From Oscillospiraceae bacterium (GTDB taxonomy: Bacteria > Bacillota > Clostridia > Oscillospirales > Oscillospiraceae): 38,934 nucleotides of DNA. Positions within the stretch are counted from its first letter, which is position 1, and every line of letters begins with the position of its first letter. The stretch is from contig JAFVZT010000015.1 in assembly GCA_017508045.1 (NCBI GenBank), positions 1-38,934 of the forward strand. The letters are read 5' to 3'. Of the stretch, positions 4,871 to 29,675 are shown piece after piece. The translations under genes and the position numbers were made by a program. The notes under the pieces are model-generated. The model ran no database searches. It had not been told where the DNA came from and saw only the letters and a list, made by a program, of their open reading frames with translations.

Positions 4871-4960
4871 AACAGCATCTCCTTTTGGTATATAGCATAC
4901 CCAAAATATTGAAAAAGCTATCAGCAGAATACAAATAAACATTTCCTGATATGGCAACTA

Positions 4961-4996
4961 TTCAATAAAAAAGAGACAGTCTTTCGACTGTCTCTT
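4961..4996 (-). terminator. Terminator of tRNA-Leu
   Basis: On the minus strand AAGAGACAGTC pairs with GACTGTCTCTT (11 bp, tetraloop) followed by TTTTTTATTG. It lies directly after the encoded CCA of the tRNA. Confidence 0.88.
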
Positions 4997-4997
4997 A

Positions 4998-5085
4998 TGG
5001 TGCGCGAGGCGGGACTTGAACCCGCATGCCCGGAATGAGCACTAGAACCTGAATCTAGCGAGTCTACCAATTCCACCACTCGCGC
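4998..5085 (-). tRNA. tRNA-Leu (anticodon CAG)
   Basis: 88 bases including encoded CCA. The GCGCGAG acceptor pairs with CTCGCGC. The anticodon loop is TTCAGGT. A long class-II variable arm (TGCTCATTCCGGGCA) is typical of Leu. The T-arm GGGTTCAAGTCCC is intact. Confidence 0.96.
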
Positions 5086-5116
5086 ATATTTGGTTAGTTT
5101 CGCTTAACGCTAGAGT

Positions 5117-5145
5117 ATATTACCACGACAGCCCGTCTTTGTCAA
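5117..5145 (-). promoter_or_regulatory. Sigma-A promoter of tRNA-Leu
   Basis: Minus strand: TTGACA (5145-5140), 17-base spacer, TAATAT (5122-5117), about 32 bases upstream of the tRNA 5' end. Confidence 0.8.
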
Positions 5146-5182
5146 CTGTTTTTTCGTGGTTTTTTGAAAAAATAAGGACAGC

Positions 5183-5377
5183 TCAATCCTTATAATACAG
5201 CAGGCAGTGGCAGTAGCCTTTATAGCTGGGGTCAGCAATCTGATCCCTGAATTCTTTGCACATACACTTATTGTCTTCGGTACGCTCCAAACGGCAGGGG
5301 CAGTAGCCACCGGTGCGCTTTAAGCCGTCACGGATGGTTTTTACCATTTCCTTGTCCTCATTTAACCGAACTGCCAC
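5183..5377 (-). CDS. Ferredoxin-thioredoxin reductase catalytic-chain-like mini-protein
   Basis: 64 residues from a GTG at 5377. A promoter at 5400-5427 overlaps the longer open frame, and GGAAGGAAG precedes the GTG, so the short form is preferred. Three CxC pairs are seen: CPC (26-28), CMC (38-40) and CHC (56-58), with KEFRDQ between. This is the FTR beta-chain signature (a 4Fe-4S cluster next to a redox-active disulfide). Family members in anaerobes are stand-alone and probably pass electrons from ferredoxin to a thioredoxin-like partner, but no such partner is adjacent. It is shorter than plant FTR beta (about 110 residues). Confidence 0.85.
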   Translation of the reverse strand: MAVRLNEDKEMVKTIRDGLKRTGGYCPCRLERTEDNKCMCKEFRDQIADPSYKGYCHCLLYYKD

Positions 5378-5399
5378 AAAACCACTTCCTTCCCCTGTT

Positions 5400-5427
5400 A
5401 TTATAAAAAAAACCACCCGTATGTCAA
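5400..5427 (-). promoter_or_regulatory. Promoter of FTR-like gene
   Basis: Minus strand: TTGACA (5427-5422), 16-base spacer containing a T-run, TATAAT (5405-5400). It lies about 23 bases before the GTG start and back to back with the ygiQ promoter. Confidence 0.78.
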
Positions 5428-5436
5428 GACTTGGTG

Positions 5437-5465
5437 TTCCATTTTGAAATATCTCATGGTATACT
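5437..5465 (+). promoter_or_regulatory. Probable extended -10 promoter of ygiQ
   Basis: TGGTATACT (5457-5465) gives an extended -10 (TGn TATACT). The -35 region (TTCCAT) is poor. It lies about 26 bases before the chosen ATG. Confidence 0.5.
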
Positions 5466-5490
5466 AAAGAAAACACTTGGGGAGGTACTT

Positions 5491-7368
5491 ATGGATTTTC
5501 TGCCAATTTCCAAAAAAGATATGGCTGCCCGGGGCTGGGAGCAGTGCGATTTTGTATATGTCATTGGCGATGCCTATGTTGACCACCCCTCCTTCGGCCA
5601 CGCCATCATCAGCCGTGTGCTGGAACACGCCGGCTACAGTGTGGGCATCATCTCCCAACCGGATTGGAAAAACCCCAAATCCATTGATGCTCTGGGAAAG
5701 CCCCGATTGGGTTTCCTTGTGTCCGGCGGCAATATGGATTCCATGGTAAATCACTACTCCGTTACCAAGCATCGGCGGAAAAGTGATGCCTTCACCCCCG
5801 GCGGTGTCATGGGCAGACGCCCGGATTACGCCACCGTGGTATACTGCAATTTAATCCGCCAGACCTATAAGGACATTCCCATTTTAATCGGCGGCATTGA
5901 AGCCAGCTTGCGCCGTCTGGGGCATTACGACTACTGGTCGGAAAGCATGAAACGGTCAATTTTGCTGGATTCGCAAGCTGACCTTTTAATGTACGGTATG
6001 GGCGAAAAAAGCATTGTGGAGATTGCCGATGCCTTAAACTCCGGAATGGATGTCAAAGACATTACCTACATTGACGGAACAGTCTTTCGCACCCAAAGCT
6101 TAGATGAGAGTATGCCCACCGTTATATTACCCTCTTTTGAAGCTGTAAAGTCCAATCGGCGCACCTATGCCGAAAGCTTTAAAATCCAGTACGACAACTG
6201 TGACCCCTTTACCGCCAAGCGCTTGGCAGAACCCTGCGGAAAAGAATTTGTGGTGCAAAACCCACCTCAAAAACCCTTGACTACAGCGGAAATGGACGCT
6301 GTTTACGCCCTTGATTACAGCCGCACCTATCATCCCAGCTATGAAAAAGTCGGCGGCGTGCCGGCAATTGAGGAGGTTAAGTTCAGTCTGGTAAGCAACC
6401 GGGGCTGCTTTGGCGCTTGCTCTTTCTGCGCGCTGACCTTCCACCAGGGACGCATCATTCAGGTTCGCAGTCATGAATCTATTCTTGCTGAAGCTGAGCA
6501 AATGGTTAAAGATAAGGATTTCAAAGGTTATATCCACGATGTAGGCGGTCCTACCGCCAATTTCCGCTTTCCTGCCTGTTCAAAGCAAACCAGCAAGGGC
6601 GCGTGTCCACATCGGCAATGTCTGTTTCCTACGCCCTGCAAAAATATCTGCGCTGACCATTCAGACTATATCAGCCTTTTGCGAAAGCTGCGGAAGATAC
6701 CTGGGGTTAAAAAGGTCTTTGTCCGCAGCGGTATTCGCTTTGATTATCTGCTGGCAGATAAAAAGGACACCTTCTTTAAAGAGCTGGTACAGCACCATAT
6801 TTCCGGTCAGTTAAAGGTTGCGCCGGAGCATGTTTCAGACGCGGTTTTGCAGCGTATGGGTAAGCCGAGAAATGCGGTATATAACCGGTTTGTGGATAAG
6901 TATTTTGCCCTTAACAAGCAATTTGGCATGAAGCAATTTCTTGTGCCATACCTGATGTCCAGCCATCCCGGCTCTACGCTGAAGGAGGCTATTGAGCTTG
7001 CCGAGTACATTCGGGAAATGGGTTACAATCCGGAGCAGGTGCAGGATTTCTACCCTACCCCCTCCACCTTGTCAACGGTAATGTATTACACCGGACTTGA
7101 CCCCAGAACTATGGACAAGGTTTATGTTCCCACAGACCCCCACGAAAAGGCTATGCAGCGGGCGCTGATTCAGTACCGCAATCCCAAAAACTACTACCTT
7201 GTAAAAGAGGCGCTTATCAAGGCGCATCGGGAGGATCTGATTGGCGCAGGTCCGAAATGCTTAATTCGAGCCGTCCCGCCCCGTCAAGGCGGTCAGACAC
7301 CGCCGCCCAAACGACCGATTGCCAAAAAACCGCCTGCAAAACCTGCCGCCAGAAAAAAGCGCAAATAA
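5491..7368 (+). CDS. ygiQ: YgiQ family radical SAM protein (UPF0313)
   Basis: 625 residues. The ATG at 5491 has GGGGAGG upstream. The frame extending to 5431 overlaps the promoter. N-terminal YgiQ domain (FLPISKKDM..., then [11 protein letters not shown], a B12-binding-like fold), and a central radical SAM core with C306-x3-C310-x2-C313 ([11 protein letters not shown]) for the 4Fe-4S cluster. The usual C-terminal YgiQ-associated region includes [17 protein letters not shown]. The very end is Pro/Lys/Arg-rich and disordered, perhaps for nucleic acid contact. The substrate of the family is not established. It is a single-gene unit ended by a strong terminator. Confidence 0.92.
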
Positions 7369-7375
7369 AAAGCTG

Positions 7376-7406
7376 AGCCGTACGGGATATTCCCGTACGG
7401 CTTTTT
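7376..7406 (+). terminator. ygiQ terminator
   Basis: AGCCGTACGGGA and TCCCGTACGGCT form a perfect 12-bp stem with a 3-base loop, followed by TTTTT. Confidence 0.92.
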
Positions 7407-7468
7407 GCCGTTCTGTTTTAAAAGCAAATGCATAGAATGTTCCATACATCTGAAATTGAGGTGGTACT

Positions 7469-8080
7469 ATGGAACATACAACCAACAGCATAACCCTTCG
7501 AGGAAGTCTAGTGGCGCTTCCTCAGTTTTCCCATGAGAATCACGGAAGAAGCTTTTACCGTTTTACTTTGGAAGTACCACGGCTGTCCGGCGCGGTGGAT
7601 CTTCTTCCGGTAATCGCAGAGGCGCAGATTGTTGAACGACTTGACCCAACAGCCGGAAGCTTACTTACCGTCACAGGACAAATCCGTTCCCATAACCAGC
7701 GTGCAGAGAACGCCCGACATCTGTTGATTTTTGTGTTTGCTACAGACATTGTTGTAGAAGACGGAGAACCCATTAACGATGTCATTGTGGAAGGGCCTTT
7801 ATGCCGGGAACCAAACTTTCGCCGCACCCCTCTTGGCAGGGAAATCTGTGATGTGATGCTTGCCGTACCCAGAGCATTCCACAGAGCAGATTACTTACCC
7901 TGTATTTTGTGGGGACGCACCGCCCAGGAGGTTTCCCAATGCCACACAAGGGACTGCATCCGCATCTACGGAAGACTGCAAAGCCGGATTTACACAAAGC
8001 TTTTGGAAAGCGGCCCGGAGGAACGCACCGCTTACGAAATATCCGCCTTAACTGCAGACATTTTACAAGAGGAGATTTAA
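7469..8080 (+). CDS. SSB-like protein with two OB folds
   Basis: 203 residues, ATG preceded by GAGGTGG. Two single-strand-binding/OB modules are visible. Residues about 8-90 contain ITLRGSL, FYRFTLEVPR and LTVTGQI. Residues about 100-180 contain VIVEGPL, REICDVMLAVPRA, PCILWGRTAQ and RIYGRLQSR. The second carries the classic SSB-type WGRTAQ pattern. Tandem-OB SSB-like proteins of this size occur in Clostridia beside the housekeeping ssb. A role in DNA repair or recombination is plausible but inferred. There is no acidic SSB tail (it ends ADILQEEI). The last 18 bases overlap the 3' end of the convergent feoB. Confidence 0.82.
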   Translation: MEHTTNSITLRGSLVALPQFSHENHGRSFYRFTLEVPRLSGAVDLLPVIAEAQIVERLDPTAGSLLTVTGQIRSHNQRAENARHLLIFVFATDIVVEDGEPINDVIVEGPLCREPNFRRTPLGREICDVMLAVPRAFHRADYLPCILWGRTAQEVSQCHTRDCIRIYGRLQSRIYTKLLESGPEERTAYEISALTADILQEEI

Positions 8081-9829
8081 TAAAGCGCAGATAACAACAC
8101 CCACAGCGGTCGGCAGCGCAAATGCCGCCGCTGTATTTTTTATGGAGTGGGTCTCCCGATAAACGGTCATTAAGGTTGTAGCGCAGGGCCAGTGGAACAA
8201 GGTAAACACCATTGTACACACCGCCATTTTCCATGTAAACCAATTCTGCAAAAGCTGTTGGCCCAAACCGGAGGTCCCCTGCAGACTGGTTCGGGTGATC
8301 GCCATTAAAATCACCGGTATCAGCAGCTCGTTTGCCGGTAAGGAAAAAACAAAGGCAAGCAAAATAATCCCGTTCATGCCCAAAAGCAGTCCCGCCGGGT
8401 CTAATAAAGCCGCTAACTTATCCAGAGCGGAGGTATTTGTAAAAATCCATAAAAGCATGCCCGCCGGAGCTGCCACATATAAGGCTCTTAGTGCCACAAA
8501 AAGGCTTCTGTCCAGCAAAGAGCGTACCAGTATCTGCCCAAGCCGGGGGCGGCGGAAGGGCGGCAATTCCATAATGAAGGTGCTGTCCTGACCCCGTAAA
8601 ACGGTTTTGTTCAGAAAAGCTGTAATTGCCATCGCTCCCACTACCCCCAAAGCCACGCATAGAGCCACCACCAACGCAGTACCGGCATCCGGAAAGAATA
8701 AACCGCCCAGCAAAATCAGGGCAGGAAATCTTCCGTTGCAGGGCACCATGGCATTGGTAAGGATGGCGCTCAAGCGTTCCCGTGGGGAACGGATAATTCG
8801 GCAGCCCATGACACCGACAGCATTGCACCCCAAACCCATACACAAGGTCAATGCCTGTTTGCCGCAGCCGCCGCAGCGGGCCATGGCAGGGTCTAAAAGA
8901 AATGCCATTCTGGGCAAATAGCCGATATCCTCCAGAATTGTAAACAAAGGAAAAAAAATTGCCATAGGCGGCAGCATAACACAAATTACCCGGGCGCAGG
9001 TGGCATAAATTCCGTCAACAAGTACCCCACTTAACCACCAGGGCAATCCGGAAAGTGCATTGGTAAGAAGCGCATATAGGGCATCTGCCCCTCTCTCCAA
9101 CAGCATAGAGGGGTAATTTGCACCCCAAACCGTGAGCCACACAATCCCCAATAAAATCAGAAACAAAAAGGGAACGCCAAACCGTCGGCTTACCAATAAG
9201 CGATCGATTTTCCGCTGAAAATTCCAGCCGTCCTGCCCATCCCGGCTTACACAGGCTCTGGCAATTCGTTCTGCCTCCTCTATGGGATCTGAAGCGGTGG
9301 GGGTTCTTAACTTTTGCTCTTGTCCTGCCGTTTTTTGAATTGCCTGCAAAAGTGTTTCCAGTCCTGTCCTCTGCCCCGCTGCCGTTAATACAACCGGTGC
9401 GTCCAGGCAGCGGGACAATCGCTTTGCATTTACGGATAGTCCGTGGCGATTGGCTTCATCCATTAAATTTACGCACACAACAACGCATTTGCAGCATTGT
9501 AATATCTGCAAAGCAAGAATCAAACTGCGCTCTAAACAGCTTCCGTCGCAGACCACCACCGTGCAATCTGCTCTGTCTGCCCGGATATACTCCCCGGCAA
9601 TCTGCTCATCGGCAGAGCTTCCCTTCAGGGAGTATGTACCCGGTAAATCAATAAAGGTGTATTCTATGTTCTGTCTGCGCAGTTGCCCTTGGGCAACCCC
9701 CACCGTTTTCCCCGGCCAGTTTCCCGTATGCTGATGCAGACCGGTAAGGGTATTAAACAAAGTGCTTTTTCCCACATTGGGATTGCCTGCCAAGGCAACC
9801 GTTATCTTTTGTTCCCCGGAACTTTCCAT
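8063..9829 (-). CDS. feoB: Ferrous iron transporter FeoB
   Basis: 588 residues. The start ATG shares one base with the feoA stop (TGATG), so the genes are translationally coupled. The longer frame runs through feoA and is rejected. The N-terminal G domain has GNPNVGKST (G1), IDLPGTYSL (G3) and NLMDEA (G4). It is followed by Gate/FeoB_C membrane segments with the conserved PCNGRFPALI stretch. The family imports Fe(II) across the cytoplasmic membrane. It is shorter than E. coli FeoB (773), as is common in Clostridia. It fits the iron demand of the many Fe-S proteins nearby. Confidence 0.96.
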   Translation of the reverse strand: MESSGEQKITVALAGNPNVGKSTLFNTLTGLHQHTGNWPGKTVGVAQGQLRRQNIEYTFIDLPGTYSLKGSSADEQIAGEYIRADRADCTVVVCDGSCLERSLILALQILQCCKCVVVCVNLMDEANRHGLSVNAKRLSRCLDAPVVLTAAGQRTGLETLLQAIQKTAGQEQKLRTPTASDPIEEAERIARACVSRDGQDGWNFQRKIDRLLVSRRFGVPFLFLILLGIVWLTVWGANYPSMLLERGADALYALLTNALSGLPWWLSGVLVDGIYATCARVICVMLPPMAIFFPLFTILEDIGYLPRMAFLLDPAMARCGGCGKQALTLCMGLGCNAVGVMGCRIIRSPRERLSAILTNAMVPCNGRFPALILLGGLFFPDAGTALVVALCVALGVVGAMAITAFLNKTVLRGQDSTFIMELPPFRRPRLGQILVRSLLDRSLFVALRALYVAAPAGMLLWIFTNTSALDKLAALLDPAGLLLGMNGIILLAFVFSLPANELLIPVILMAITRTSLQGTSGLGQQLLQNWFTWKMAVCTMVFTLFHWPCATTLMTVYRETHSIKNTAAAFALPTAVGVVICALLNLLL

Positions 9830-19456: not shown

Positions 19457-21247
19457 ATGTCTGAAGAAAATCTGTACACCTTTGAAAACCCGGAATACCG
19501 CAAAACCTACTGGCATACCTGCTCCCATATTATGGCGCAGGCTGTCAAGCGTCTGTGGCCTGAGGTTCTGCTGGCAATCGGCCCTGCCATTGACGAGGGC
19601 TGGTACTATGACTTTGATGCCCCCTTCTCCTTTACCCCCGAGCATTTGGAGAAAATTGAAGCAGAAATGAAGAAAATCTGCAAGGAGCGTATCCGTCTGG
19701 AACGCAGTGAAAAGCCCAGAGCTGACGCCCTTGCATTTATGCACAGTGAGCCCTACAAGGTGGAGCTGATTGAAGATTTGCCCGTCGACGCCGTCATCTC
19801 CTTCTATACCCAGGGGGAATTTACCGACCTGTGCGCCGGTCCGCACCTTGACCACACCGGCAGAGTTAAACACAACGGCTTTAAGCTGACCAAATCCTGC
19901 GGCGCTTACTGGCGCGGTGACTCTAACCGCAAAATGCTGCAGCGTATCTACGGCATCGGCTTCCCCAGCAAGGAAGAGCTGGATGCTTATTTGGAAAAGC
20001 AGGCTGAGGCGCTTAAGCGTGACCACAACAAGCTCGGCCGTGAGCTGGAATTTTTCACCACTGTGGAAGAAATCGGTCAGGGTCTGCCCATTTTGCTGCC
20101 TAAGGGCGCAAGAGTTATCCAGACCCTCCAGCGTTGGATTGAAGACGAAGAGCAAAAGCGGGGTTACCTTCTGACCAAGACCCCCTTAATGGCAAAGTCT
20201 GACCTGTACAAAATCTCCGGTCACTGGGATCACTATCTGGACGGCATGTTCGTTCTGGGTGATCCCACCGACGAAACCAAGGAGTGCTTTGCCCTGCGTC
20301 CCATGACCTGTCCTTTCCAGTATCAGGTTTATTTAAACCGCGCCCGTTCCTACCGTGACCTGCCTATGCGTTTAGGCGAAACCTCCACCTTGTTCCGTAA
20401 TGAGGACTCAGGCGAAATGCACGGTCTTATCCGCGTTCGTCAGTTCACCATTTCCGAGGGTCACCTGGTACTTCGCCCCGACCAGCTGGAAGAAGAGTTT
20501 AAAGGCTGCTTAGAGCTTGCCAAGTATGTGCTGGACACTGTGGGCATGCTGGAAAACTGTTCCTTCCGCTTCAGTCAGTGGGACCCCGCCCGCGCCGGCA
20601 TTAAATACGAAGGCACTGCCGAGCAGTGGGAAGAAGCGCAAAGCGTTATGAAAACCATTCTGGACAATCTGGGTCTGGAATACGAAATCGGTATTGACGA
20701 GGCCGCATTCTACGGTCCTAAGCTGGATATTCAGTACAAGAACGTATTCGGCAAGGAAGACACTATCGTTACCATCCAGATTGATATGCTTTTGGCACAA
20801 AAGTTCGGCATGGAATACACCGATGCCGACGGTCAGAAAAAGACTCCCTATATCATCCACCGCACCTCTTTGGGCTGCTATGAGCGCACCCTGGCATACC
20901 TCATTGAACGGTATGCCGGCGCGCTGCCTCTGTGGATGATGCCCACACAGGTTCGTGTCATGCCCATTACCGACCGGGCGCACCAGTACTGTAAGGATTT
21001 GGTGCAGCAGCTGGAAAATACCGGCATCCATACAGAGGGCGACTATCGCAGCGAAAAGCTGGGCTACAAAATCCGGGAAGCACAGCTGCAGAAAATCCCC
21101 TATATGCTGGTGGTCGGCGACCGGGATATGGAAAACGGCACTGTCTCCGTCCGTACCCGTAAGGGCGATGATTTAGGCGCTATGACCCCGGCAGAATTTA
21201 CTGCCAAATGCCTTATGGAAATCGCCACTAAGAGTAAAGAAATTTAA
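19457..21247 (+). CDS. thrS: Threonine-tRNA ligase lacking the N-terminal TGS domain
   Basis: 596 residues, ATG with AAGGAGG upstream. It starts directly at the editing domain: HTCSH (His20, His24, the HxxxH pair) and LCAGPHLDHTG. The catalytic class II core shows MTCPFQ (Zn Cys), motif 2 ETSTLFRNEDSGEMHGL and motif 3 HRTSLGCYERT. The C-terminal anticodon-binding domain begins near QVRVMPITDRAHQY. Most bacterial ThrRS have about 640 residues with an N-terminal TGS domain, absent here. No in-frame coding lies upstream, since the T-box terminator is there. Controlled by the T-box. Confidence 0.96.
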   Translation: MSEENLYTFENPEYRKTYWHTCSHIMAQAVKRLWPEVLLAIGPAIDEGWYYDFDAPFSFTPEHLEKIEAEMKKICKERIRLERSEKPRADALAFMHSEPYKVELIEDLPVDAVISFYTQGEFTDLCAGPHLDHTGRVKHNGFKLTKSCGAYWRGDSNRKMLQRIYGIGFPSKEELDAYLEKQAEALKRDHNKLGRELEFFTTVEEIGQGLPILLPKGARVIQTLQRWIEDEEQKRGYLLTKTPLMAKSDLYKISGHWDHYLDGMFVLGDPTDETKECFALRPMTCPFQYQVYLNRARSYRDLPMRLGETSTLFRNEDSGEMHGLIRVRQFTISEGHLVLRPDQLEEEFKGCLELAKYVLDTVGMLENCSFRFSQWDPARAGIKYEGTAEQWEEAQSVMKTILDNLGLEYEIGIDEAAFYGPKLDIQYKNVFGKEDTIVTIQIDMLLAQKFGMEYTDADGQKKTPYIIHRTSLGCYERTLAYLIERYAGALPLWMMPTQVRVMPITDRAHQYCKDLVQQLENTGIHTEGDYRSEKLGYKIREAQLQKIPYMLVVGDRDMENGTVSVRTRKGDDLGAMTPAEFTAKCLMEIATKSKEI

Positions 21248-21253
21248 AGACAT

Positions 21254-21295
21254 AAGTGGCTGTCTCACTTTTCATAGTGAGGCAGCCACTTTATT
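21254..21295 (+). terminator. thrS terminator
   Basis: AAGTGGCTGTCTCAC pairs with GTGAGGCAGCCACTT with one mismatch, followed by a T-rich tail. Confidence 0.85.
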
Positions 21296-21415
21296 GTATT
21301 AAAAAGAACGGTACCGCAAAAACAAAGCTAATAGGAATTGTCAATACTGCAATGTGATGTCGCTTTTTCGACCAAATTCAACAATCGCAAGGAAAACATT
21401 GATTTTAAAAAAGTC

Positions 21416-21444
21416 TTTACAAATTGTCTATTCTTTTATATAAT
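21416..21444 (+). promoter_or_regulatory. Promoter of the sugar-oxidation operon
   Basis: TTTACA (21416-21421), 17-base spacer, TATAAT (21439-21444). Transcription would start near 21451 and give a leader of about 225 bases. Confidence 0.8.
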
Positions 21445-21449
21445 TAGCG

Positions 21450-21677
21450 AGGATATCGATGAGTGAATATATGAGGCTTAAAGGTGTTAACTGTGTCTGT
21501 TATTCCATACATAATGCGGGGCACTATATCTATACCTTTGATTAGTTTTTGGCTGTGTGCCGATTTTAGAATCGCCGCCATCTTCATTTAAAAACGAAAG
21601 TTATTTGCTCTCCGAGTTGGAGTACTTTGCAAAAGCATCAAAACGTATTGAATTAAAATTAATATAGGAGGACAAAA
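21450..21677 (+). other. Long operon leader with two possible gene remnants
   Basis: No full gene. An ATG at 21459 opens a 28-codon frame (MSEYMRLKGVNC...) ending at 21545. In another frame, from about 21542 to the stop overlapping the ribosome site, a 40-codon stretch ends SELEYFAKASKRIELKLI. Together they may be remains of a lost, frameshifted regulator gene, or a coincidence. No known riboswitch motif was recognised. A GGAGG ribosome site precedes 21678. Confidence 0.3.
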
Positions 21678-22799
21678 ATGAAAATTACAGACGTACGCAC
21701 AATGATTTTAAGACAGAACAAGATCGAAATGATTGGTGACGGCAGTCAGGACACTGTTGTTATCGTTGTTGAGACCGACGCGGGTATCTGCGGTGTTGGT
21801 GAGGTTGACTCAGCACCCTACGTTGTTAAAACAATAATCGACACTCCCGCCTCACATATGGCTTGTATGGGTCTTAAAGAAATCCTTATCGGCGAGGATC
21901 CTCTCGACGTTGAACGTCTTTGGCGCAAAATGTACGATAAGAGCATCTACTACGGTCGCCGCAGCGCCGTTATCCACGCTATGAGTGGTATTGACATCGC
22001 GCTTTGGGATATTATCGGTAAATACTACAACGTTCCTACCGCAAAGGCTCTTGGCGGCAGCTATCGCGACAAAATTCAAGCATACTGCTCTGTTCTTATG
22101 CCCGAAACCGAGGATGAAGTATTCCGCCTTGTTGAAAGCCATCAGGGTAAAGGCTATAAGGGCTTCAAGTTTGGCTGGGGCGGTCTCGGTCAAAGCTTTG
22201 AAAAGGATATAAAACTTGTAAAAGCTGCAAGAAAAGCAATCGGCGACGACGCCCATCTTATGATTGATATTGCTATGCGCTGGACCGACGTTAAGGGCGC
22301 TATCAATACCGCAAAGGCATTCGAAGAACAAAACGTGTTCTGGATTGAAGAGCCGTTCCATCCGGATAACCTCGAGGGTTATGCACGTATCAACAAGTCA
22401 ACCACCTGCCATATCTCAGGCGGTGAGGAAATCGGTACAATCCACGAGTTTCGTGAGCTTCTCAGCCGCGGCTGTGTCGACATTGTTCAGCCTGACCTCA
22501 GCCGTTGCGGTGGTCTTACTGTTGCAAGAAAACTCATTGATCTTGCAGAAGCATATAACACAATCATCATTCCTCACGCATTCAAAACAAATATTCTTAT
22601 GTCGGCAACGCTTCAGTATATCGCAACGCTTCCAAACGTTTGGTATCAGGAATTCTGTGAGCAGGATACAATTCTTCGCAAAACTCTTACATCCCCCTTG
22701 TTTAGTATCGATCCCGAAGGCTTTGTTCACATTCCTCAGACCCCCGGTATCGGTATAACCCTTAATCAGAATGCGGTAGAAAGGTTTATAGTAGGCTAA
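21678..22799 (+). CDS. Enolase-superfamily acid-sugar dehydratase (mandelate racemase/muconate lactonizing type)
   Basis: 373 residues, ATG after AGGAGGAC. N-terminal capping domain (ITDVRTMILR, GVGEVDSAPYVV) and TIM-barrel domain. Metal ligands are likely in LMIDIAMRW (Asp), WIEEPFHPDN (Glu) and ISGGEEIGT (Glu). The His/Asp general base is in IIPHAF and DIVQPD. YKGFKFGWGG is the Lys-containing strand. Members with this layout dehydrate aldonates or uronates to 2-keto-3-deoxy acids. First gene of a six-gene operon. Its stop shares a base with the next ATG (TAATG), indicating coupling. The exact sugar acid cannot be read from sequence. CTT-rich leucine codons differ from the upstream core genes. 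Confidence 0.9.
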   Translation: MKITDVRTMILRQNKIEMIGDGSQDTVVIVVETDAGICGVGEVDSAPYVVKTIIDTPASHMACMGLKEILIGEDPLDVERLWRKMYDKSIYYGRRSAVIHAMSGIDIALWDIIGKYYNVPTAKALGGSYRDKIQAYCSVLMPETEDEVFRLVESHQGKGYKGFKFGWGGLGQSFEKDIKLVKAARKAIGDDAHLMIDIAMRWTDVKGAINTAKAFEEQNVFWIEEPFHPDNLEGYARINKSTTCHISGGEEIGTIHEFRELLSRGCVDIVQPDLSRCGGLTVARKLIDLAEAYNTIIIPHAFKTNILMSATLQYIATLPNVWYQEFCEQDTILRKTLTSPLFSIDPEGFVHIPQTPGIGITLNQNAVERFIVG

Positions 22800-23680
22800 T
22801 GAAACTTACAAAAGATTTTCGTATGGTAGCAGTTACTGTCACACCCTTTGACAGTGACGAAAACCCACTTATTGATGAGATAAAAAAACAAACCGAGCAA
22901 ATTTGCTTGTCAGAGGCTGATGCGATTTTACCCATTGCATCAACAGGCGACTATGTAAAATTGGATCTTGACGAAAGACTTCAGGTATTTGCGGCTGTAG
23001 CCGAAGCCAACCGCGGCAGAAAAAAACTTATTGCAAGTGCGTGCGATACCTCTGCAACAAGAGTTTTAAAGACAATCAATGCTGTTAAAAAGATGGGTTA
23101 TGATGCCTGTCTTGTCTGTCCTCCGTACTATTATCCGCTTACGCAGGATGCGGTCTATGACTTTTTCAAAACCGTTTGTGAAGGCGCGGGTGACTTTGCC
23201 GTTATCGGCTATCACGTTCCGTTTTTTACAACGGGTATTGAAATTCCCACCTTTGAAAAACTGCTTGATTTCCCTAACTTTGTAGGCATGAAGGATTCGT
23301 CAGCGGTTATGAAGCGCATTTCGCACCTTTGCGAGATTGTAAAGGCAAAGCGCCCTGATTTTGCTATGTTCACCGGCACCGATGACTGCCTTTTCCCCGC
23401 ACTTTGTGCAGGTTGCTTTGGCTCAATGACGGCGCTTGGAGCAATAATGCCCACGCAAATCCGCGCAATCTACAATGCATTCGATGCACAAGATATTAAA
23501 ACGGCTATGGAAATCAACCACAGCATTTTGCCAATCATTCGCCAGTGTGACTCGCTTACTTTCCCGATAGGATATAAATTACTTGCAAAGGCAAAGGGAC
23601 TTAAAACTTGTGAGGGCGAAACTGCCGAACAAAAGTTGGTTCTTGACCGCATAACCGCGCTCCTTAAGGAGGGCTTTTAA
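22799..23680 (+). CDS. DHDPS/NanA-family class I aldolase (2-keto-3-deoxy acid aldolase candidate)
   Basis: 293 residues in the DapA/KDG-aldolase family. Schiff-base Lys in FVGMKDSS and catalytic Tyr in VIGYHVP. The usual GTTGE substrate loop is ASTGDYVKL, an atypical Glu-to-Asp change that argues against DapA itself. As the product of the dehydratase upstream should be a 2-keto-3-deoxy sugar acid, an aldolase releasing pyruvate plus an aldehyde is the natural role. KDG-type dehydratase is an alternative. Translation is coupled by the one-base overlap with the previous gene. Confidence 0.88.
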   Translation: MKLTKDFRMVAVTVTPFDSDENPLIDEIKKQTEQICLSEADAILPIASTGDYVKLDLDERLQVFAAVAEANRGRKKLIASACDTSATRVLKTINAVKKMGYDACLVCPPYYYPLTQDAVYDFFKTVCEGAGDFAVIGYHVPFFTTGIEIPTFEKLLDFPNFVGMKDSSAVMKRISHLCEIVKAKRPDFAMFTGTDDCLFPALCAGCFGSMTALGAIMPTQIRAIYNAFDAQDIKTAMEINHSILPIIRQCDSLTFPIGYKLLAKAKGLKTCEGETAEQKLVLDRITALLKEGF

Positions 23681-24709
23681 ATGAAAGCGGTAATGTGGAA
23701 AGGTCTTTACGATTTAGACTATTGTGATGTTCCCGAACCGCAGGTAAAACCCGGATGGGTTAAAATTAAGGTTAAGGCGCTTGGACTTTGCGTAACTGAG
23801 GTACATATCATTTCGGGCAAATTCCCTGTCTGCGACCCGCCCGCTGTGCTCGGTCACGAAATTTGCGGTGACATTGTCGAGGTGGGAGAAGGCTGTAACC
23901 CCAACAATATTGGAAAACGTGTTGTTGTTGAAACCTACGTTGGTTGCGGAGAGTGCGAGTTTTGTAAAAACGGACAAAAGCATCTTTGCGACGCGGGTGA
24001 AATCGGCTATCCTCCATACGATGGCGGTCACGCGCAGTACGTTATCGTACCTGAGGGCTGTGTTAGATTTTTAAAAGATAATATCTCCTATGACGAGGGC
24101 GCGATTATGGAGGCGGTTGCCTGTCCCTTCGGCGCGGTTGTCAACGCGGGTGTGAAAGACGGCGATGTTGTACTTGTTACGGGTGCAGGCGTTGCAGGAC
24201 TTTCGTTTATACAGTCGACCCTTGCTCTTGGTGCGAAAAAAGTACTTTGCGCTGTTCGTAACGATGCAAAAGCAGCGCTTGTCAAAAAATTCGGCGGTAC
24301 TCCGATTGATATCCGAAACAATGACTTAAACGATGCCGTTAAAAAAGCAACAAATGGCAAGGGCGTTGACCTCGCTATTGATGCTGCAGGTGCGTCTTCT
24401 ACAATCGACAGTTGCATAAAAAACGTAAAAAGCGGTGGCAAAGTCGTGCTTTACGGTATTCCGTCAAACGATACAAAAGTTGACCTCCCCGTTATCGACT
24501 GTATTTTAAGGCAAATTACCGTTGTAGGATACACAGGCAACGAAAAAGCGTGGGATACCCTCATCGATTTTGTGTCACAGGGTAAAATCTCCCTTAAAGA
24601 AATGATAAGTCAGACTTTACCGCTTTCACAATTCAAAAAGGCGGTGGATATCGTCGAAAATGGTGGTCCGTCAGTTATCAAAGTAGTGCTTCATCCGTGG
24701 GAAGATTAA
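23681..24709 (+). CDS. Zinc-dependent alcohol/sugar dehydrogenase (MDR)
   Basis: 342 residues. The ATG immediately follows the aldolase stop, with AAGGAGGG just before. Catalytic zinc ligands are in LGLCVTEVH and the VLGHEICG block. Four structural Cys in GCGECEFCKNGQKHLC. Rossmann site VTGAGVAGLSF. Family members oxidise polyols, aldoses or threonine. In this operon, oxidation of the sugar C1 to a lactone or of a secondary alcohol is the likeliest step. Cofactor preference cannot be decided. The substrate is inferred from context only. Confidence 0.9.
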   Translation: MKAVMWKGLYDLDYCDVPEPQVKPGWVKIKVKALGLCVTEVHIISGKFPVCDPPAVLGHEICGDIVEVGEGCNPNNIGKRVVVETYVGCGECEFCKNGQKHLCDAGEIGYPPYDGGHAQYVIVPEGCVRFLKDNISYDEGAIMEAVACPFGAVVNAGVKDGDVVLVTGAGVAGLSFIQSTLALGAKKVLCAVRNDAKAALVKKFGGTPIDIRNNDLNDAVKKATNGKGVDLAIDAAGASSTIDSCIKNVKSGGKVVLYGIPSNDTKVDLPVIDCILRQITVVGYTGNEKAWDTLIDFVSQGKISLKEMISQTLPLSQFKKAVDIVENGGPSVIKVVLHPWED

Positions 24710-24710
24710 A

Positions 24711-25037
24711 ATGATTAAATTTGAAAATTTAGATACTAAAATTCTGCACGAATTTCAGGGTGGAAACGGCGACATCGTCGCAAAAATCTACGCAGACGAC
24801 TTAAACCGCATCGTAAAAAGCGTGTATGCCCCCGGCGTGTCAACGGGTTATCATACCCACGATGACTCTTCGGAAATAATCTTTATTTTAGAGGGAAGCT
24901 GCAAGGTGATTCACGACGGAGTGGAAGATCGGCTGAGTGTCGGTGACTGTCACTATTGTAAAAAGGGGCAGTCGCACGCGGTTGTAAACGACGGCAACGC
25001 CGACCTTGTTATGTACGCGGTAGTTTGTATGCAGTAA
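24711..25037 (+). CDS. Small cupin protein
   Basis: 108 residues, a single conserved beta-barrel domain. Metal-type motif 1 is G-x5-H-x-H with a later acidic residue (YHTHDDSSEIIFILEG). Motif 2 is QSHAVVNDG. The first two His and Glu could bind a metal. Starts 1 base after the dehydrogenase stop. Such cupins in sugar operons act as isomerases, epimerases or ligand sensors. No function can be assigned here. Confidence 0.85.
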   Translation: MIKFENLDTKILHEFQGGNGDIVAKIYADDLNRIVKSVYAPGVSTGYHTHDDSSEIIFILEGSCKVIHDGVEDRLSVGDCHYCKKGQSHAVVNDGNADLVMYAVVCMQ

Positions 25038-25049
25038 AGGGTTAGAATT

Positions 25050-25766
25050 ATGTCAAAACTTGAATTTGCCGGTCAGGCAGGGTTTATTTTGGAAACAAGC
25101 ACGGGCTACCGCGTTGGTATTGACCTTTATTTGTCAGATTGCTGTAACCGTCTTTACGGTTTAAAACGCCTTATGCCGTTTGTTTACAGACCGAGCGAAC
25201 TTAATCTCGATTTGCTTATTGCCACTCACGAACACGAGGACCATTTTGACCTCGATAGTGTGCCTGTTATTATGCAAAACCCAAAAACAGAACTCTTGTG
25301 TGCAATTGACTGCAAAAAATATGAGAGTGCATTTAAGCTCGACAGTACCCGTATAACGTATTTCAAGCCTTTTGAGATTTATGAAAACGAGAATATCAAA
25401 ATAACCGCTCTGCCTTGTGACCACGGTGACGAGGCACCCGATGCGGTCGGTCTTTTGATCGAGGCAGACAGCAAACGTATTTATATCGCAGGGGATACCT
25501 GCTATAGAGAGGACTATTTTATAAATCCCCTGGTGTCAGGTGTTGACGTGTTCATTATGCCAATAAACGGTGCCTTTGGCAACCTAAACGAAAAAGAGGG
25601 TGCAAAAGCCGCAGATATCATAAAGGCGGAGATGACTATCCCCTGCCATTTCTGGTGCTTTGCAGGTCATTTGGGAAATCCGCAAATATTTATTGACGAG
25701 ATGGACAAAAATTATCCTGAACTTAAATACAACCTTATGCGTGTAGGTGAAACAGCAGAAATATGA
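25050..25766 (+). CDS. UlaG-like metallo-beta-lactamase-fold hydrolase, lactonase candidate
   Basis: 238 residues. Metal motif THEHEDHFD (HxHxDH), later ligands IAGDTCYRED (Asp) and CHFWCFAGH (His). The family includes UlaG L-ascorbate-6-phosphate lactonase, so lactone hydrolysis is plausible. An N-terminal Gly-rich GQAGFILET opens the fold as in UlaG. It lies 12 bases after the cupin. It would open the lactone made by the dehydrogenase. Alternatives: a phosphodiesterase or RNase-like MBL protein, but the size and operon argue for a lactonase. Confidence 0.85.
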   Translation: MSKLEFAGQAGFILETSTGYRVGIDLYLSDCCNRLYGLKRLMPFVYRPSELNLDLLIATHEHEDHFDLDSVPVIMQNPKTELLCAIDCKKYESAFKLDSTRITYFKPFEIYENENIKITALPCDHGDEAPDAVGLLIEADSKRIYIAGDTCYREDYFINPLVSGVDVFIMPINGAFGNLNEKEGAKAADIIKAEMTIPCHFWCFAGHLGNPQIFIDEMDKNYPELKYNLMRVGETAEI

Positions 25767-26626
25767 TAAAAGAAACGTTTTATAAAGACAGGCCTGCAGT
25801 AAAACTAAGTTGTGATAAGTTTACAGCTACATTTTTACCCAAAGACGGCGGTAAGCTTGCATCGTTCAAGTCAAATTCAGGCTTTGAGTATCTATTACAA
25901 ACCGAGGGTGAAAAATATCGTAGACTTGACCTTGCAGGCAGATTTGTAAAAAGTGAATGCAGCGGCTTTGACGATATGTTTCCCACCATCGACCCGTGCG
26001 TTGTAAACGGCATGGAATATCTTGACCATGGTCAAATCTGCCGTCAAGAACTTGACGCTGAAATTGACGGCAACAGGCTCACACTATGTTGCAAACTCCA
26101 AGACCTCAACATTTTTTACAAGAAAACGGCTTATATAAAAGACGATGCGCTTGTTGTTGAGTATCACATTGAAAACCACAACGATTTCGATTTTGAATAT
26201 CTTTGGGCTGGACATATTATGATACGCGGCGAGGAGGGCGCATACGCTGTCAGCAATCTCGATGGAACTCCAAGAAAAATCGTGTCGGGAACGCCTGTGA
26301 GTGAGGAGACGGCACATATACTGCCTCAAAAGGTACATAAAAACTATAAGTTTTATTACACCGACGCAAACCCTCCCGTAAAATGCGGAGTTGTTTTTCC
26401 CAAGAGCAACACCGAGATATGTGTCGAGTGTGACAGCGACGTTGTAAAATATTTTGGCGCGTGGGTAAACGCAGGCGACATAAACAGCGCATATACAATT
26501 GCAATCGAGCCGTGTACCGCGCTCTATGACGACCCGATACGTGCAAAAGAAGCGAACGCAAATTCTATCATAAAGGCGCACGATTCGGTAAATTTAACTC
26601 TTAAAATTTCTTATAAAACCGTATAA
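25763..26626 (+). CDS. Galactose-mutarotase-like (aldose 1-epimerase family) protein
   Basis: 287 residues, ATGA overlap of 4 bases with the previous stop. A beta-sandwich with the mutarotase-like pattern: GGKLASFKSNSGFEYLLQ at the N-terminus, ECSGFDDMFPTID, and a mid-protein VEYHIENHNDFDFEYLW strand pair. Members interconvert anomers of free aldoses or bind carbohydrate. It completes an oxidative sugar route by supplying the anomer used by the dehydrogenase. The usual catalytic His/Glu pair is not certain from reading alone. Ends the operon before a strong terminator. Confidence 0.8.
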   Translation: MIKETFYKDRPAVKLSCDKFTATFLPKDGGKLASFKSNSGFEYLLQTEGEKYRRLDLAGRFVKSECSGFDDMFPTIDPCVVNGMEYLDHGQICRQELDAEIDGNRLTLCCKLQDLNIFYKKTAYIKDDALVVEYHIENHNDFDFEYLWAGHIMIRGEEGAYAVSNLDGTPRKIVSGTPVSEETAHILPQKVHKNYKFYYTDANPPVKCGVVFPKSNTEICVECDSDVVKYFGAWVNAGDINSAYTIAIEPCTALYDDPIRAKEANANSIIKAHDSVNLTLKISYKTV

Positions 26627-27168
26627 TCTAACGGTAGAAAAAAAGAATCCCTACGAAACCTGGCGTTGATTAACGCCAGGTTTCGTTTTAATGTAGTAGG
26701 ACTGATTTCTTCCTTTTGATAGAACTCTCTGAGCAGTCCGGCTACCTCACGGCGGTAAACGCTTTTATCCCGCTTTCGGATAGACTTGCCTATGCTGTAT
26801 TTACCTAGTGTTTCTTTTACTCGGCGAGATTTTTCCTTGCGGCGCAACACTTTTGTGTTTCCGTAAAGCAAGTATCTGTCATAGAGCCAACGATAGATTG
26901 TCCTCCAGCTCGGTATAGGTATGGGGCTGGCATACTGGCGGTCAGCTCCGGTGACCATGTAGCAAGCAGTTTTTTCTCAATGTGGAAATGACCTCTTGGG
27001 AACGAAACATTCTTCTATGGCAATAGGAATGGCGCAGAAGGTGCTTCTTTTGCGCTGTGTGAGGATATAAGTTGGGATGTTATAAAATGGGTGCGGTTTC
27101 TATTGATCTCTCTGCTGACCGTGCTGGGGTTGTGGCCGGACTTCTATGGTAAGATGGCGGTAGTTCAT
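26611..27168 (-). pseudogene. Decayed IS30-family transposase
   Basis: The original start is visible at 27168: AAAAGGAG then ATG with NYRHLTIEVR, the hallmark N-terminus of IS30 transposases (usually NYRHLTIEER). This frame stops after 22 codons. A second stretch in another frame (26958 to about 26760) gives SWRTIYRWLYDRYLL, KVLRRKEKSRRVKET and RKRDKSVYRRE, the middle of the same protein. The sequence between them is frameshifted and shortened. The C-terminal catalytic part (GHWExD onwards) is missing. A normal element has about 1 kb. Clearly inactive. Confidence 0.8.
26653..26690 (+). terminator. Operon terminator
   Basis: ACGAAACCTGGCGTT and AACGCCAGGTTTCGT form a perfect 15-bp stem with a 4-base loop, followed by TTTTAAT. 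Confidence 0.9.
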
Positions 27169-27270
27169 ACAGGTCTCCTTTTGTAGTTTGGCGTGCGGTA
27201 ACTCTATTCTGCCAGAGGCCTATATGAACTTCCTTTATTTTCTCAAAGTGTTGCACTTGATAGTATAATT
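26690..27270 (-). mobile_element. IS30-type element remnant
   Basis: The region holds the broken transposase. AGTGTTGCACTTGA at 27247-27260 resembles the terminal repeat of IS30-type elements, upstream of the transposase start. The opposite end was not found, so the left boundary is approximate and may have been lost. It sits exactly between the sugar operon and the esterase gene. Confidence 0.55.
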
Positions 27271-27282
27271 TACCATTCCCAG

Positions 27283-27318
27283 AAAAGACCCGATAGCTTG
27301 TGCTATCGGGTCTTTTTT
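27283..27318. terminator. Bidirectional terminator
   Basis: AAAAGACCCGATAGC and GCTATCGGGTCTTTT form a perfect 15-bp stem, T-runs on both strands. It serves the minus-strand esterase gene and stops read-through from the left. Confidence 0.88.
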
Positions 27319-27410
27319 GTGCATGGACTATGAAGAGATATTTGCGACAGTTTGCGTATGTATGCAAACTCTTACATAAATCACAGCCCAACCGTGTATA
27401 TCATTATCAC

Positions 27411-28349
27411 TCAAGCTAAGTAGGCATCTAAATGCAGTGCAAAAAGGTGTCCAAGTTTGATTTCACTCAGCGAATCGTAGTGCGGAATATCTGGTGTATT
27501 TTCCGGCTCGTTTGAGCAGGACAGCTCACTGGTATCCACAAGACTATTTAAGTGAGAAAGCTGCGCAACCTTCGCCTTGCCTTGATTGACGCCCTCGTAA
27601 TAAACCCAGTATGCCGGATTTTGTGCAATGTAAGCGTCAATAAATGCAATCCCATCGTCTGCGGCGTATTTAGAAAACTTCTTGCGTATATCCTTAATAA
27701 AATTCTCAAGATGCTCACCGTAAGCACTTGATGTTTCCATCATAAAGCTGTCTGATTCTCCCTGCATCCAACACATACCTTCGATTTTTATGTCATAGTC
27801 TTTGGATATTAAGTAATCAATACTGTTTTGGACAAAGGCAACGAAAGCTTTATACTCCTTGCCTGTTTTTCCTTTACTGGAGGGTGAAAGCCACTGTTCG
27901 TATAAATTTGTTCCACCCCAAGCACATTTAATTATAAAAAACATCTCGTTCGGGTACATTTCATTAAGCTTTTCTGCTAAACCAAGCTCCGGCCCAAAAA
28001 AGCCCCCAAGCTCCCCTTGGGCTGTTGAACACTTCACAAAACCTTCAGAAATGTTTTGACCGGACAAATAATTGATATATACATTGTCGTATCCGTTTTC
28101 ATATTGTGTATATTTTTCCTCCGGAACGTTTTTCTTTAGATATGCGTCAATACTGCATCCCGATGCGTTGGATTGACCACCTAGGAGAATTACTCTCGCT
28201 CTTTTCCCACCACCATTGGGCAACGTATCATTTAAGGTATAGCTGATTTGGTTTGTTAAGTAATTGTGTATTGCAAATACTGCTCCCAAAACAAAAACCG
28301 CCGACAGCAACGCGATCGTTAATGTGCTTCTCTTGCGTTTATTTAACAT
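27411..28349 (-). CDS. Membrane-anchored SASA/CE6-type carbohydrate esterase
   Basis: 312 residues. AAAGGAG lies 12 bases before the ATG. An uncleaved-looking N-terminal anchor (KRKRSTLTIALLSAVFVLGA) puts the enzyme outside the cell. The catalytic domain of the sialate O-acetylesterase-like family shows GGQSNASG (Ser), CWMQGESD and HYDSLSEIKLG (Asp/His). Family CE6 and SASA enzymes deacetylate sialic acid, xylan or similar glycans. A gut glycan target is an inference. It lies next to the sugar operon, but the opposite strand and a decayed IS separate them. Confidence 0.85.
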   Translation of the reverse strand: MLNKRKRSTLTIALLSAVFVLGAVFAIHNYLTNQISYTLNDTLPNGGGKRARVILLGGQSNASGCSIDAYLKKNVPEEKYTQYENGYDNVYINYLSGQNISEGFVKCSTAQGELGGFFGPELGLAEKLNEMYPNEMFFIIKCAWGGTNLYEQWLSPSSKGKTGKEYKAFVAFVQNSIDYLISKDYDIKIEGMCWMQGESDSFMMETSSAYGEHLENFIKDIRKKFSKYAADDGIAFIDAYIAQNPAYWVYYEGVNQGKAKVAQLSHLNSLVDTSELSCSNEPENTPDIPHYDSLSEIKLGHLFALHLDAYLA

Positions 28350-28904: not shown

Positions 28905-29462
28905 TTAATCTATATTTTCCAGGTTTGTCGTTACGATATCTATTATTTTTTGAAAGCCCTGCACTTCGCCTGAATCTATTTCAGGAGCAGTATCATCGGT
29001 CTTCCACCAATACTTCTTTGGATTGTCAATAATAACTTTTTCAATTAGTGAAAGCGCCTGTGCATCATATCGGCACATAACATATTCATAATATCCCTCG
29101 CCAATCGATTCATTTCCGATCCACTTATGGGCCGGGATACAGATATACTTTCCATCCTCGGTATAATGACCGTACATATCGATACATTCATAGTCACGCG
29201 GCAATGTTACACGCTTGATCAGCTCATAATTTTCCAAGGAATAAACATAGAAGTGTTTTCCGTTTTCCAAAGCAAAGCATTGCATTTCATCCGGTCGTAT
29301 ATCACCGGTATACAGATAGTGATGACCTTTATGTTGCTTCAGGATTGCATTTGTTTTCCGACCTAAAATGGTAATACTACCGCCGGTAATTCGGACGATA
29401 TACGCGTTAGAAGTAATACTGTATTTCCAACTGCGCTTATCATCTGTATGATGCTCCCACAT
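28905..29462 (-). CDS. Unrecognised 185-residue soluble protein
   Basis: The ATG at 29462 follows GAGGTGA. A consensus promoter at 29487-29515 lies inside the longer open frame, which decides this start. There is no signal peptide or membrane segment. It is rich in aromatic residues and beta-strand-like alternation: YSITSNAYIVRITGG, HHYLYTGDIRPDEMQCF, NGKHFYVYSLENYELI. The spacing hints at a WD/YVTN-like beta-propeller-type fragment, but no blade count can be confirmed. I do not recognise it. It lies between tRNA genes in the accessory region, with its own promoter and no partner gene. Confidence 0.72.
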   Translation of the reverse strand: MWEHHTDDKRSWKYSITSNAYIVRITGGSITILGRKTNAILKQHKGHHYLYTGDIRPDEMQCFALENGKHFYVYSLENYELIKRVTLPRDYECIDMYGHYTEDGKYICIPAHKWIGNESIGEGYYEYVMCRYDAQALSLIEKVIIDNPKKYWWKTDDTAPEIDSGEVQGFQKIIDIVTTNLENID

Positions 29463-29486
29463 TAATTTCACCTCACATTTTTCTCC

Positions 29487-29515
29487 ATTATATTTTTGGT
29501 CCCCAACAATGTCAA
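29487..29515 (-). promoter_or_regulatory. Consensus promoter of the unrecognised gene
   Basis: Minus strand: TTGACA (29515-29510), 17-base spacer, TATAAT (29492-29487), 24 bases before the chosen ATG. The 150 bases from here to the tRNA-Gln terminator look empty. Confidence 0.85.
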
Positions 29516-29675
29516 GTCCGGTCATTCGAATCCATCATATAGGTGTTTTGCCCCGATATATTGATTTCTTTTATCATAGCCACAGCTGACAAAAAAGCAT
29601 TATCCATCAGCGCAGCAACTTAATATTCATTAAGAAAATCCCATCCCGAATGAATAATGAATGTTGAATAATACA

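Follow-up and report, generated by a model that had tools for sequence, protein, structure and literature searches.

The closest described systems are clusters from gut bifidobacteria. In the sections of the reports that deal with them, the fum genes of Bifidobacterium kashiwanohense are annotated as a mutarotase, a dehydrogenase, a lactone hydrolase, an L-fuconate dehydratase and a predicted L-2-keto-3-deoxyfuconate aldolase, leading to pyruvate and lactaldehyde (PMC6817895), and the fucosyllactose cluster of B. longum includes a mandelate racemase/muconate lactonizing protein, a short-chain dehydrogenase and a dihydrodipicolinate synthase (DHDPS) (PMC5759876). Here we describe a six-gene operon at positions 21678-26626 of contig JAFVZT010000015.1 from an Oscillospiraceae bacterium; the whole analysed stretch of 38,934 nucleotides is referred to as the window. 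Like the Bifidobacterium clusters, the operon belongs to a gut fermenter and unites in one locus mandelate-racemase-type and DHDPS-type proteins with a dehydrogenase and with candidates for a lactone hydrolase and a mutarotase, a likeness that goes by the family descriptions in those sections (PMC6817895, PMC5759876, PMC5080750). The Bifidobacterium clusters differ in having a short-chain dehydrogenase, an ABC transporter of their own and a LacI regulator.

Archaeal non-phosphorylative Entner-Doudoroff and D-arabinose routes, as the relevant portions of two reports present them, use an enolase-superfamily aldonate dehydratase and a DHDPS-family KDG aldolase (PMC9795676, PMC6336799), enzyme families that the window has as well. 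They differ in that the window enolase scores far below the NCBIfam cut-offs for gluconate/galactonate dehydratase (190 against 750) and arabinonate dehydratase (176 against 650). Archaeal routes of this kind use a zinc medium-chain dehydrogenase (MDR) to act on the sugar. The gud/gar genes of Enterocloster provide a further parallel, being described in part of one report as a clostridial gut route with a DHDPS-type protein, GudL, as putative 5-KDG aldolase; they differ from the window in their aldarate substrate, in GarR, in an ABC transporter and in an enolase of another family (PMC11775122). The type of route is thus already known in gut anaerobes, and the version in the window differs in its dehydrogenase family, its dehydratase clade and its M24 or metallo-beta-lactamase-fold partner.

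The operon and its conserved core

We read the operon, with moderate confidence, as a non-phosphorylating oxidative catabolic route from an aldose to pyruvate and an aldehyde, with a cupin and the product of gene 6 as accessories. The zinc dehydrogenase would oxidise a neutral aldose, perhaps from a plant glycan, to a lactone, which would open spontaneously or through the metallo-beta-lactamase-fold hydrolase (MBL). Loss of water from the resulting aldonate, catalysed by the enolase-type dehydratase, would yield a 2-keto-3-deoxy acid for the DHDPS-type aldolase to split, through a lysine Schiff base, into pyruvate and an aldehyde; gene 6 might serve as an anomerase. We infer the order of the steps, all of the substrates and the lactonase and mutarotase roles, whereas the families of genes 1-5, their catalytic residues, the single transcription unit and the association of the core come from the sequence. 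The six genes are as follows, with counts that refer to the 17 loci described below.

21678-22799, + strand: gene 1, mandelate-racemase-type member of the enolase superfamily, probable acid-sugar dehydratase (PF13378/PF02746, solved chain 3sjn_A, catalytic residues)
22799-23680, + strand: gene 2, DHDPS/NAL-family protein, probable pyruvate aldolase, not DapA (PF00701, residues)
23681-24709, + strand: gene 3, zinc medium-chain dehydrogenase (PF08240/PF00107; C37, H59, E60; C89/C92/C95/C103)
24711-25037, + strand: gene 4, small single-domain cupin, probably accessory (PF07883; 4/17 loci, with a weaker fifth in L039)
25050-25766, + strand: gene 5, UPF0173-like MBL with HxHxDH motif, candidate lactonase (PF12706/PF13483; 2/17 loci)
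25763-26626, + strand: gene 6, protein resembling DUF4432 and DUF5107, possibly a remote relative of aldose epimerases; candidate mutarotase (1/17 loci)

One line of evidence for this reading is the conservation of genes 1-3. We compared 17 distinct loci, the window included. Their enolases group as a single clade, supported at 100/100, in a 26-member tree, and the clade is recovered again (100/99) in a tree that combines 14 of the 17 loci with plasmid relatives. All 17 were found through the enolase, which is therefore present by construction, and they are spread over nine or more families (f1, f16, f18, f20, f33, f43, f44, f76, f92). Duplicate records of one contig (L013 and L032 with L007, L019 and L038 with L009) were counted once; L017, L018, L025-L030 and L050-L052, which fall outside the clade or are unplaced, are not among the 17, nor are L055 (from L051) and L049 (from L030), which are in no tree. 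A DHDPS gene lies near the enolase in 16 of the 17 (absent in L034), as does a zinc dehydrogenase gene (the contig of L006 ends), which answers the call of the sequence-only reading for a neighbourhood check in other Clostridia. The partner genes are co-directional with the enolase throughout while their order varies, and such reshuffling without a change of direction argues strongly for a joint function of the core genes. The dehydrogenase, dehydratase and aldolase families of a non-phosphorylating aldose pathway thus occur in one conserved unit. Judged from these comparisons, the dehydratase, DHDPS-type aldolase and dehydrogenase are a long-kept three-gene core that several families of Clostridia share; its enzymes most probably oxidise a sugar and split it to pyruvate and an aldehyde. 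The pathway proposed in the sequence-only reading is supported for this core; the support does not extend to all six genes as a complete route.

Across genomes the enolase is rare and patchy, which suggests horizontal spread of the operon. At E <=1e-60 its own genome is the only one with a hit in either the genus (136 genomes) or the family (300 genomes). Alignment searches at 1e-80 found it in 9 of 394 order-level and 11 of 391 class-level genomes, and those at 1e-100 in 3 of 398 phylum-level genomes, its own included in each, and the genomes found at these levels do not all belong to the 17-locus clade. A pattern-based scan of named genomes, an approach limited to close relatives, turned up 7 loci. 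The restriction to a single genome in genus and family would suit chance neighbours or an artefact of a metagenome-assembled genome (MAG), an explanation that we find barely credible and that the other loci already refute for the gene set. L004 and L005 have their first four genes in the window's order, as does L009 as far as its contig reaches; L004, a Clostridia MAG, was binned from the same goat-rectum sample as L009, and L005 has another source. The threonyl-tRNA synthetase (ThrRS) gene that adjoins the operon encodes a protein 93% identical to that of the congener G1422 and is hence native to the genus. Finally, dN/dS between the window and L004 lies between 0.02 (enolase) and 0.095 (DHDPS) for five genes, approximate values given that dS is 0.8-2.1, near or above saturation, and indicates purifying selection. 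The enolase is 98% identical in protein to that of L004, compared with 80-85% for its neighbours. Recombination of the enolase alone was considered and rejected, as third codon positions differ by 32%, which points to strong constraint instead.

All six open reading frames (ORFs) lie on the + strand in one tight run, and the junctions from gene 1 to gene 6 are a TAATG overlap, no gap, a 1-base gap, a 12-base gap and an ATGA overlap. This is the packing, with gaps of 0-12 bases, that was described from the sequence alone, and the single promoter and single terminator proposed at the same time are also present:

21416-21444, + strand: promoter-like TTTACA-17-TATAAT, 11/12 match
21254-21291, + strand: terminator-like stem 3' of the ThrRS gene, 16 pairs, then a T-rich tail
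26653-26686, + strand: terminator-like stem 3' of gene 6, 15 pairs, then TTTT
21378-21447, + strand: upstream stretch conserved in L004, with the promoter inside it, candidate operator for a ROK repressor

Among 18 hits in 21200-27400 the promoter match ranks first (shuffled sequences give 10.7 hits on average, standard deviation 2.9), and the two stems are the longest of 11 (shuffles mean 6.1). By its signals, the run of six genes is a real operon, predicted to be one transcription unit and to be separated from the ThrRS gene by the stem at 21254-21291. The upstream stretch is 79% identical to the sequence ahead of the same operon in L004, where third codon positions of the enolase are only 68% identical. 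L004 carries a divergent ROK-family regulator gene (PF00480) at the place occupied by ThrRS in the window.

Family placement and catalytic residues

The closest solved chain to the window enolase is 3sjn_A, which aligns over the full length at 311 bits, the next chain scoring 183 bits. Metal ligands and the His-Asp dyad align between the two, and they differ after the KxG of strand 2, where 3SJN has Gly and the window enolase Trp. We take PDB 3SJN to be an enolase-superfamily protein from Shewanella pealeana; no paper on it was found in the open-licence PMC literature. In an alignment (A7) of six in-clade and seven other enolases, Lys164, Asp197, Glu224 and Asp273 are present in all 13, and Glu250 and His300 in 12, the exception being a distant second Pseudomonas paralogue. 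These residues presumably represent three acidic metal ligands, the strand-2 lysine (Lys164) and the His300-Asp273 dyad, so that the window enolase has the full set that marks the mandelate racemase subgroup. It falls below every curated NCBIfam cut-off for acid-sugar dehydratases (galactonate, gluconate/galactonate, arabinonate, rhamnonate, talarate/galactarate, mannonate and glucarate), the best score being 201 against 311 bits for galactonate dehydratase. With no curated cut-off passed and only 3sjn_A near, the enolase falls in a group to which no curated function is assigned.

Gene 2 encodes a protein with the residues of a class I aldolase: Lys165 and Tyr138, presumably the Schiff-base lysine and catalytic tyrosine, are found in all 13 aligned proteins (alignment A3; this and dehydrogenase alignment A5 each include 13 of the 16 loci with the respective gene). 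The position of the DapA arginine, which follows YNVP and which we take to bind the substrate carboxylate, is Phe in 12 and Cys in one, in line with the earlier remark of a modified substrate loop. Met110 and Lys194 mark the GudL clade; the window protein, in an alignment that does not contain GudL, has YYY at 110-112 and GTDD at 193-196. Two clades were named beforehand as contrary to a sugar route, and neither scores nor residues place the enzymes there, in trees that held no characterised references: as a muconate cycloisomerase the enolase reaches 111 against a TIGR02534 cut-off of 335, and as DapA the aldolase reaches 138 against 206 (TIGR00674), with the arginine lost.

In the zinc dehydrogenase, Cys37, His59, Glu60, Cys89, Cys92, Cys95, Cys103, Gly168 and Gly170 are found in all 13 aligned proteins and Gly173 in 11, the window's included. 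We take these cysteines, the histidine and the glutamate to be the catalytic and structural zinc ligands, and with the GxGxxG motif the window protein thus has the features of a zinc MDR. Arg193, in the dinucleotide-binding region, is also Arg in 13 of 13, which hints at NADP. The enzyme may act on the aldonate or on the aldehyde product instead of the free aldose.

The Pfam cut-offs are passed by genes 1-5, for which the families called solid at the outset stand; gene 6 does not reach its cut-off, its best match being DUF4432 at 20.6 against 32.5 bits. The MBL had been called UlaG-like. It fails the UlaG lactonase model (PRK11709, 35 against 306) and is nearer to UPF0173 (NF001911), where it is also below the cut-off (74 against 144 bits). 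For gene 6, earlier described as mutarotase-like, there is no PF01263 match, and BLASTP to aldose epimerases finds nothing; a profile comparison keeps a weak link, its profile aligning by hhalign with four aldose epimerases over 134 columns (probability 27.6%, E 0.00065). That profile drew on ten homologues at 24-33% identity, and among the 11 aligned family members Pfam assigns DUF4432 to eight, DUF5107 to five and Aldose_epim (PF01263) to three (best 1.1e-5). Of 291 genomes of the class, 11 contain a homologue, the window's own included; the seven from the enolase pattern scan contain none. A place as a distant member of the mutarotase superfamily is plausible. As far as sequence can take it, the reading of the three-enzyme core is supported, with lactonase and mutarotase as unproven candidate roles.

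Partner genes and alternative substrates

Genes surrounding the core in relatives bear on what the substrate might be. An aldose-epimerase-family gene lies beside the core in four of the 17 loci, with conserved motifs in all four; that of L010 matches PF01263 and is below the NCBIfam galactose-epimerase cut-offs. Glycosidases near enolase loci include a GH78 and a GLAA-B/beta-helix protein (L008), a GH1 (L006) and a GH67N/DUF4838 protein (L034). Taken together, these predicted neighbours speak for a carbohydrate. The DUF4838 protein with its GH67 N-terminal domain lies near the dehydrogenase-enolase pair of L034 (5908-7980, scanned), and two homologues lie in L035 (11276-16227).

Two deeper relatives (L053, present in our trees, at 4113-9531, and L055, in no tree, at 4670-9100) have an aldehyde:ferredoxin oxidoreductase and a ferredoxin between DHDPS and an enolase ∼50% identical to the window's, which fits an aldehyde made by the aldolase; L055 also has GlcD-like and Fe-S proteins. 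Short ORFs that by eye read like pieces of DHDPS adjoin the enolase of L053.

The same surroundings admit an acid-sugar entry, in which the substrate is already an aldonate or a uronate-derived acid, no free aldose is oxidised, and the role of the zinc dehydrogenase is either to convert one aldonate epimer into another, in the manner of L-idonate-type dehydrogenases, or to reduce the aldehyde product. The dehydrogenase does match the L-idonate 5-dehydrogenase model (106 of 469 bits) and solved RspB (112 bits), among many others; the clade can do without the mutarotase and lactonase candidates; the GH67N/DUF4838 proteins beside L034 and L035, one of them scanned, hint at uronates; and TRAP transporter genes are present in relatives L053 and L044. 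The aldose-epimerase genes and the ROK regulator of L004 point instead to a free sugar, and we regard acid entry as possible though rather unlikely.

Glycerate kinases near L040 and, as a homologue, 7 kb from the enolase of L005 fit glyceraldehyde. They would also suit an aldarate (glucarate/galactarate) route like that of Enterocloster through GudD, which we take to be an enolase-type dehydratase, GudL and GarR. Part of the Enterocloster report has the DHDPS-type GudL complementing a garL knockout (PMC11775122). Such a route is very improbable here: the window enolase scores 30 against 829 for glucarate dehydratase and 165 against 500 for talarate/galactarate dehydratase, no GarR-type gene is among the six, and aldose-epimerase neighbours do not fit.

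The commonest fourth partner of the core is a protein of the M24 metallopeptidase fold, found in 12 of the 17 loci (L010:6505-7155, L005:8336-8989, L031:3442-4125 and nine further loci). It is absent in the window, L004, L034 and L035, and the contig of L009 ends inside the enolase. The residues that we take to be its metal ligands are kept in all 12 proteins (alignment A4, all 12 loci), and it weakly matches dipeptidase and ectoine hydrolase models. This 'pita-bread' metalloprotein could be a new sugar-lactone or sugar-conjugate hydrolase, displaced in the window's lineage by the UPF0173-type MBL in the same slot of the aldose pathway, a speculation that we think unlikely to prove right. Such a displacement would concern one lineage, and in the tree the signal for clustering of M24 was weak, since 36 of 500 shuffles scored as low. 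We know of no M24-fold member that hydrolyses sugar lactones or sugar conjugates. The open-licence PMC literature yielded nothing on a role for M24, on this gene set or on enolases linked to BCCT transporters, which is no proof of absence from print.

Several observations weigh against an aldose route. The M24 protein has no place in the proposed scheme, while the MBL and gene 6 are rare additions to the core. The best NCBIfam models for the dehydrogenase are threonine dehydrogenases (195 of 380 bits). None of the six proteins reaches the cut-off of an NCBIfam equivalog for any step, so these models do not point to a particular sugar. As was stated from the sequence alone, no transporter, kinase or regulator is among the six genes; in the window's own assembly, which is 76% complete, no glycerate kinase and no close ROK was found, the best match to the L004 ROK being partial (31%, 135 residues). 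Lastly, some of the nearest out-of-clade enolases, on Pseudomonas and Psychrobacter plasmids and in L045, adjoin BCCT (betaine-type) transporters.

These BCCT-linked enolases, which are ∼40% identical to the window's, lie as follows:

L089:10379-14260
L090:6666-10646
L045:8702-11396

They came in part from a plasmid scan with the enolase that gave 1534 records, all at <60% identity, of which three were examined. In L089 and L090 two enolase paralogues stand side by side, and the second copy of L089 has neither residue 250 nor residue 300. With the weak M24 matches and a deacetylase 3' of the enolase in L008 (BshB1 model, 109 of 182.5 bits), the BCCT linkage could indicate a non-sugar substrate, a nitrogen-bearing carboxylate such as a betaine or amino-sugar conjugate, whose amide M24 would cut, with the enolase as epimerase or dehydratase and the DHDPS-type protein as deaminase or aldolase. 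We judge this quite improbable, as the BCCT-linked enolases group apart, together with L045 (100/100), Gly replaces Trp at 167 in L090 and the first copy of L089 (Trp recurs in three further rows from outside the clade), and scanned in-clade neighbours are mostly sugar enzymes.

Around the operon itself, an 'empty site' in congeners could not be demonstrated: none of six stretches from the same genus aligned over >150 bases outside the ThrRS region, save for one 304-base match in L085. A suspected transposase fragment at 26611-26958 has no Pfam match and was set aside. Convergent with the operon is a SASA-type carbohydrate acetylesterase gene (PF03629) at 27411-28349 on the - strand, and a 206-residue ORF at 28905-29525 (- strand) matches nothing in Pfam or NCBIfam.

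Significance of the core

The aldose route that we favour would be an oxidative sugar pathway not yet characterised, scattered in its occurrence yet spanning a broad phylogenetic range of mostly uncultured Clostridia, and the comparison points to an unexpected M24 partner for its core. Three small proteins of one operon could reveal the sugar and give a function to the dehydratase clade, whose nearest solved structure, 3SJN, has none that we could find.

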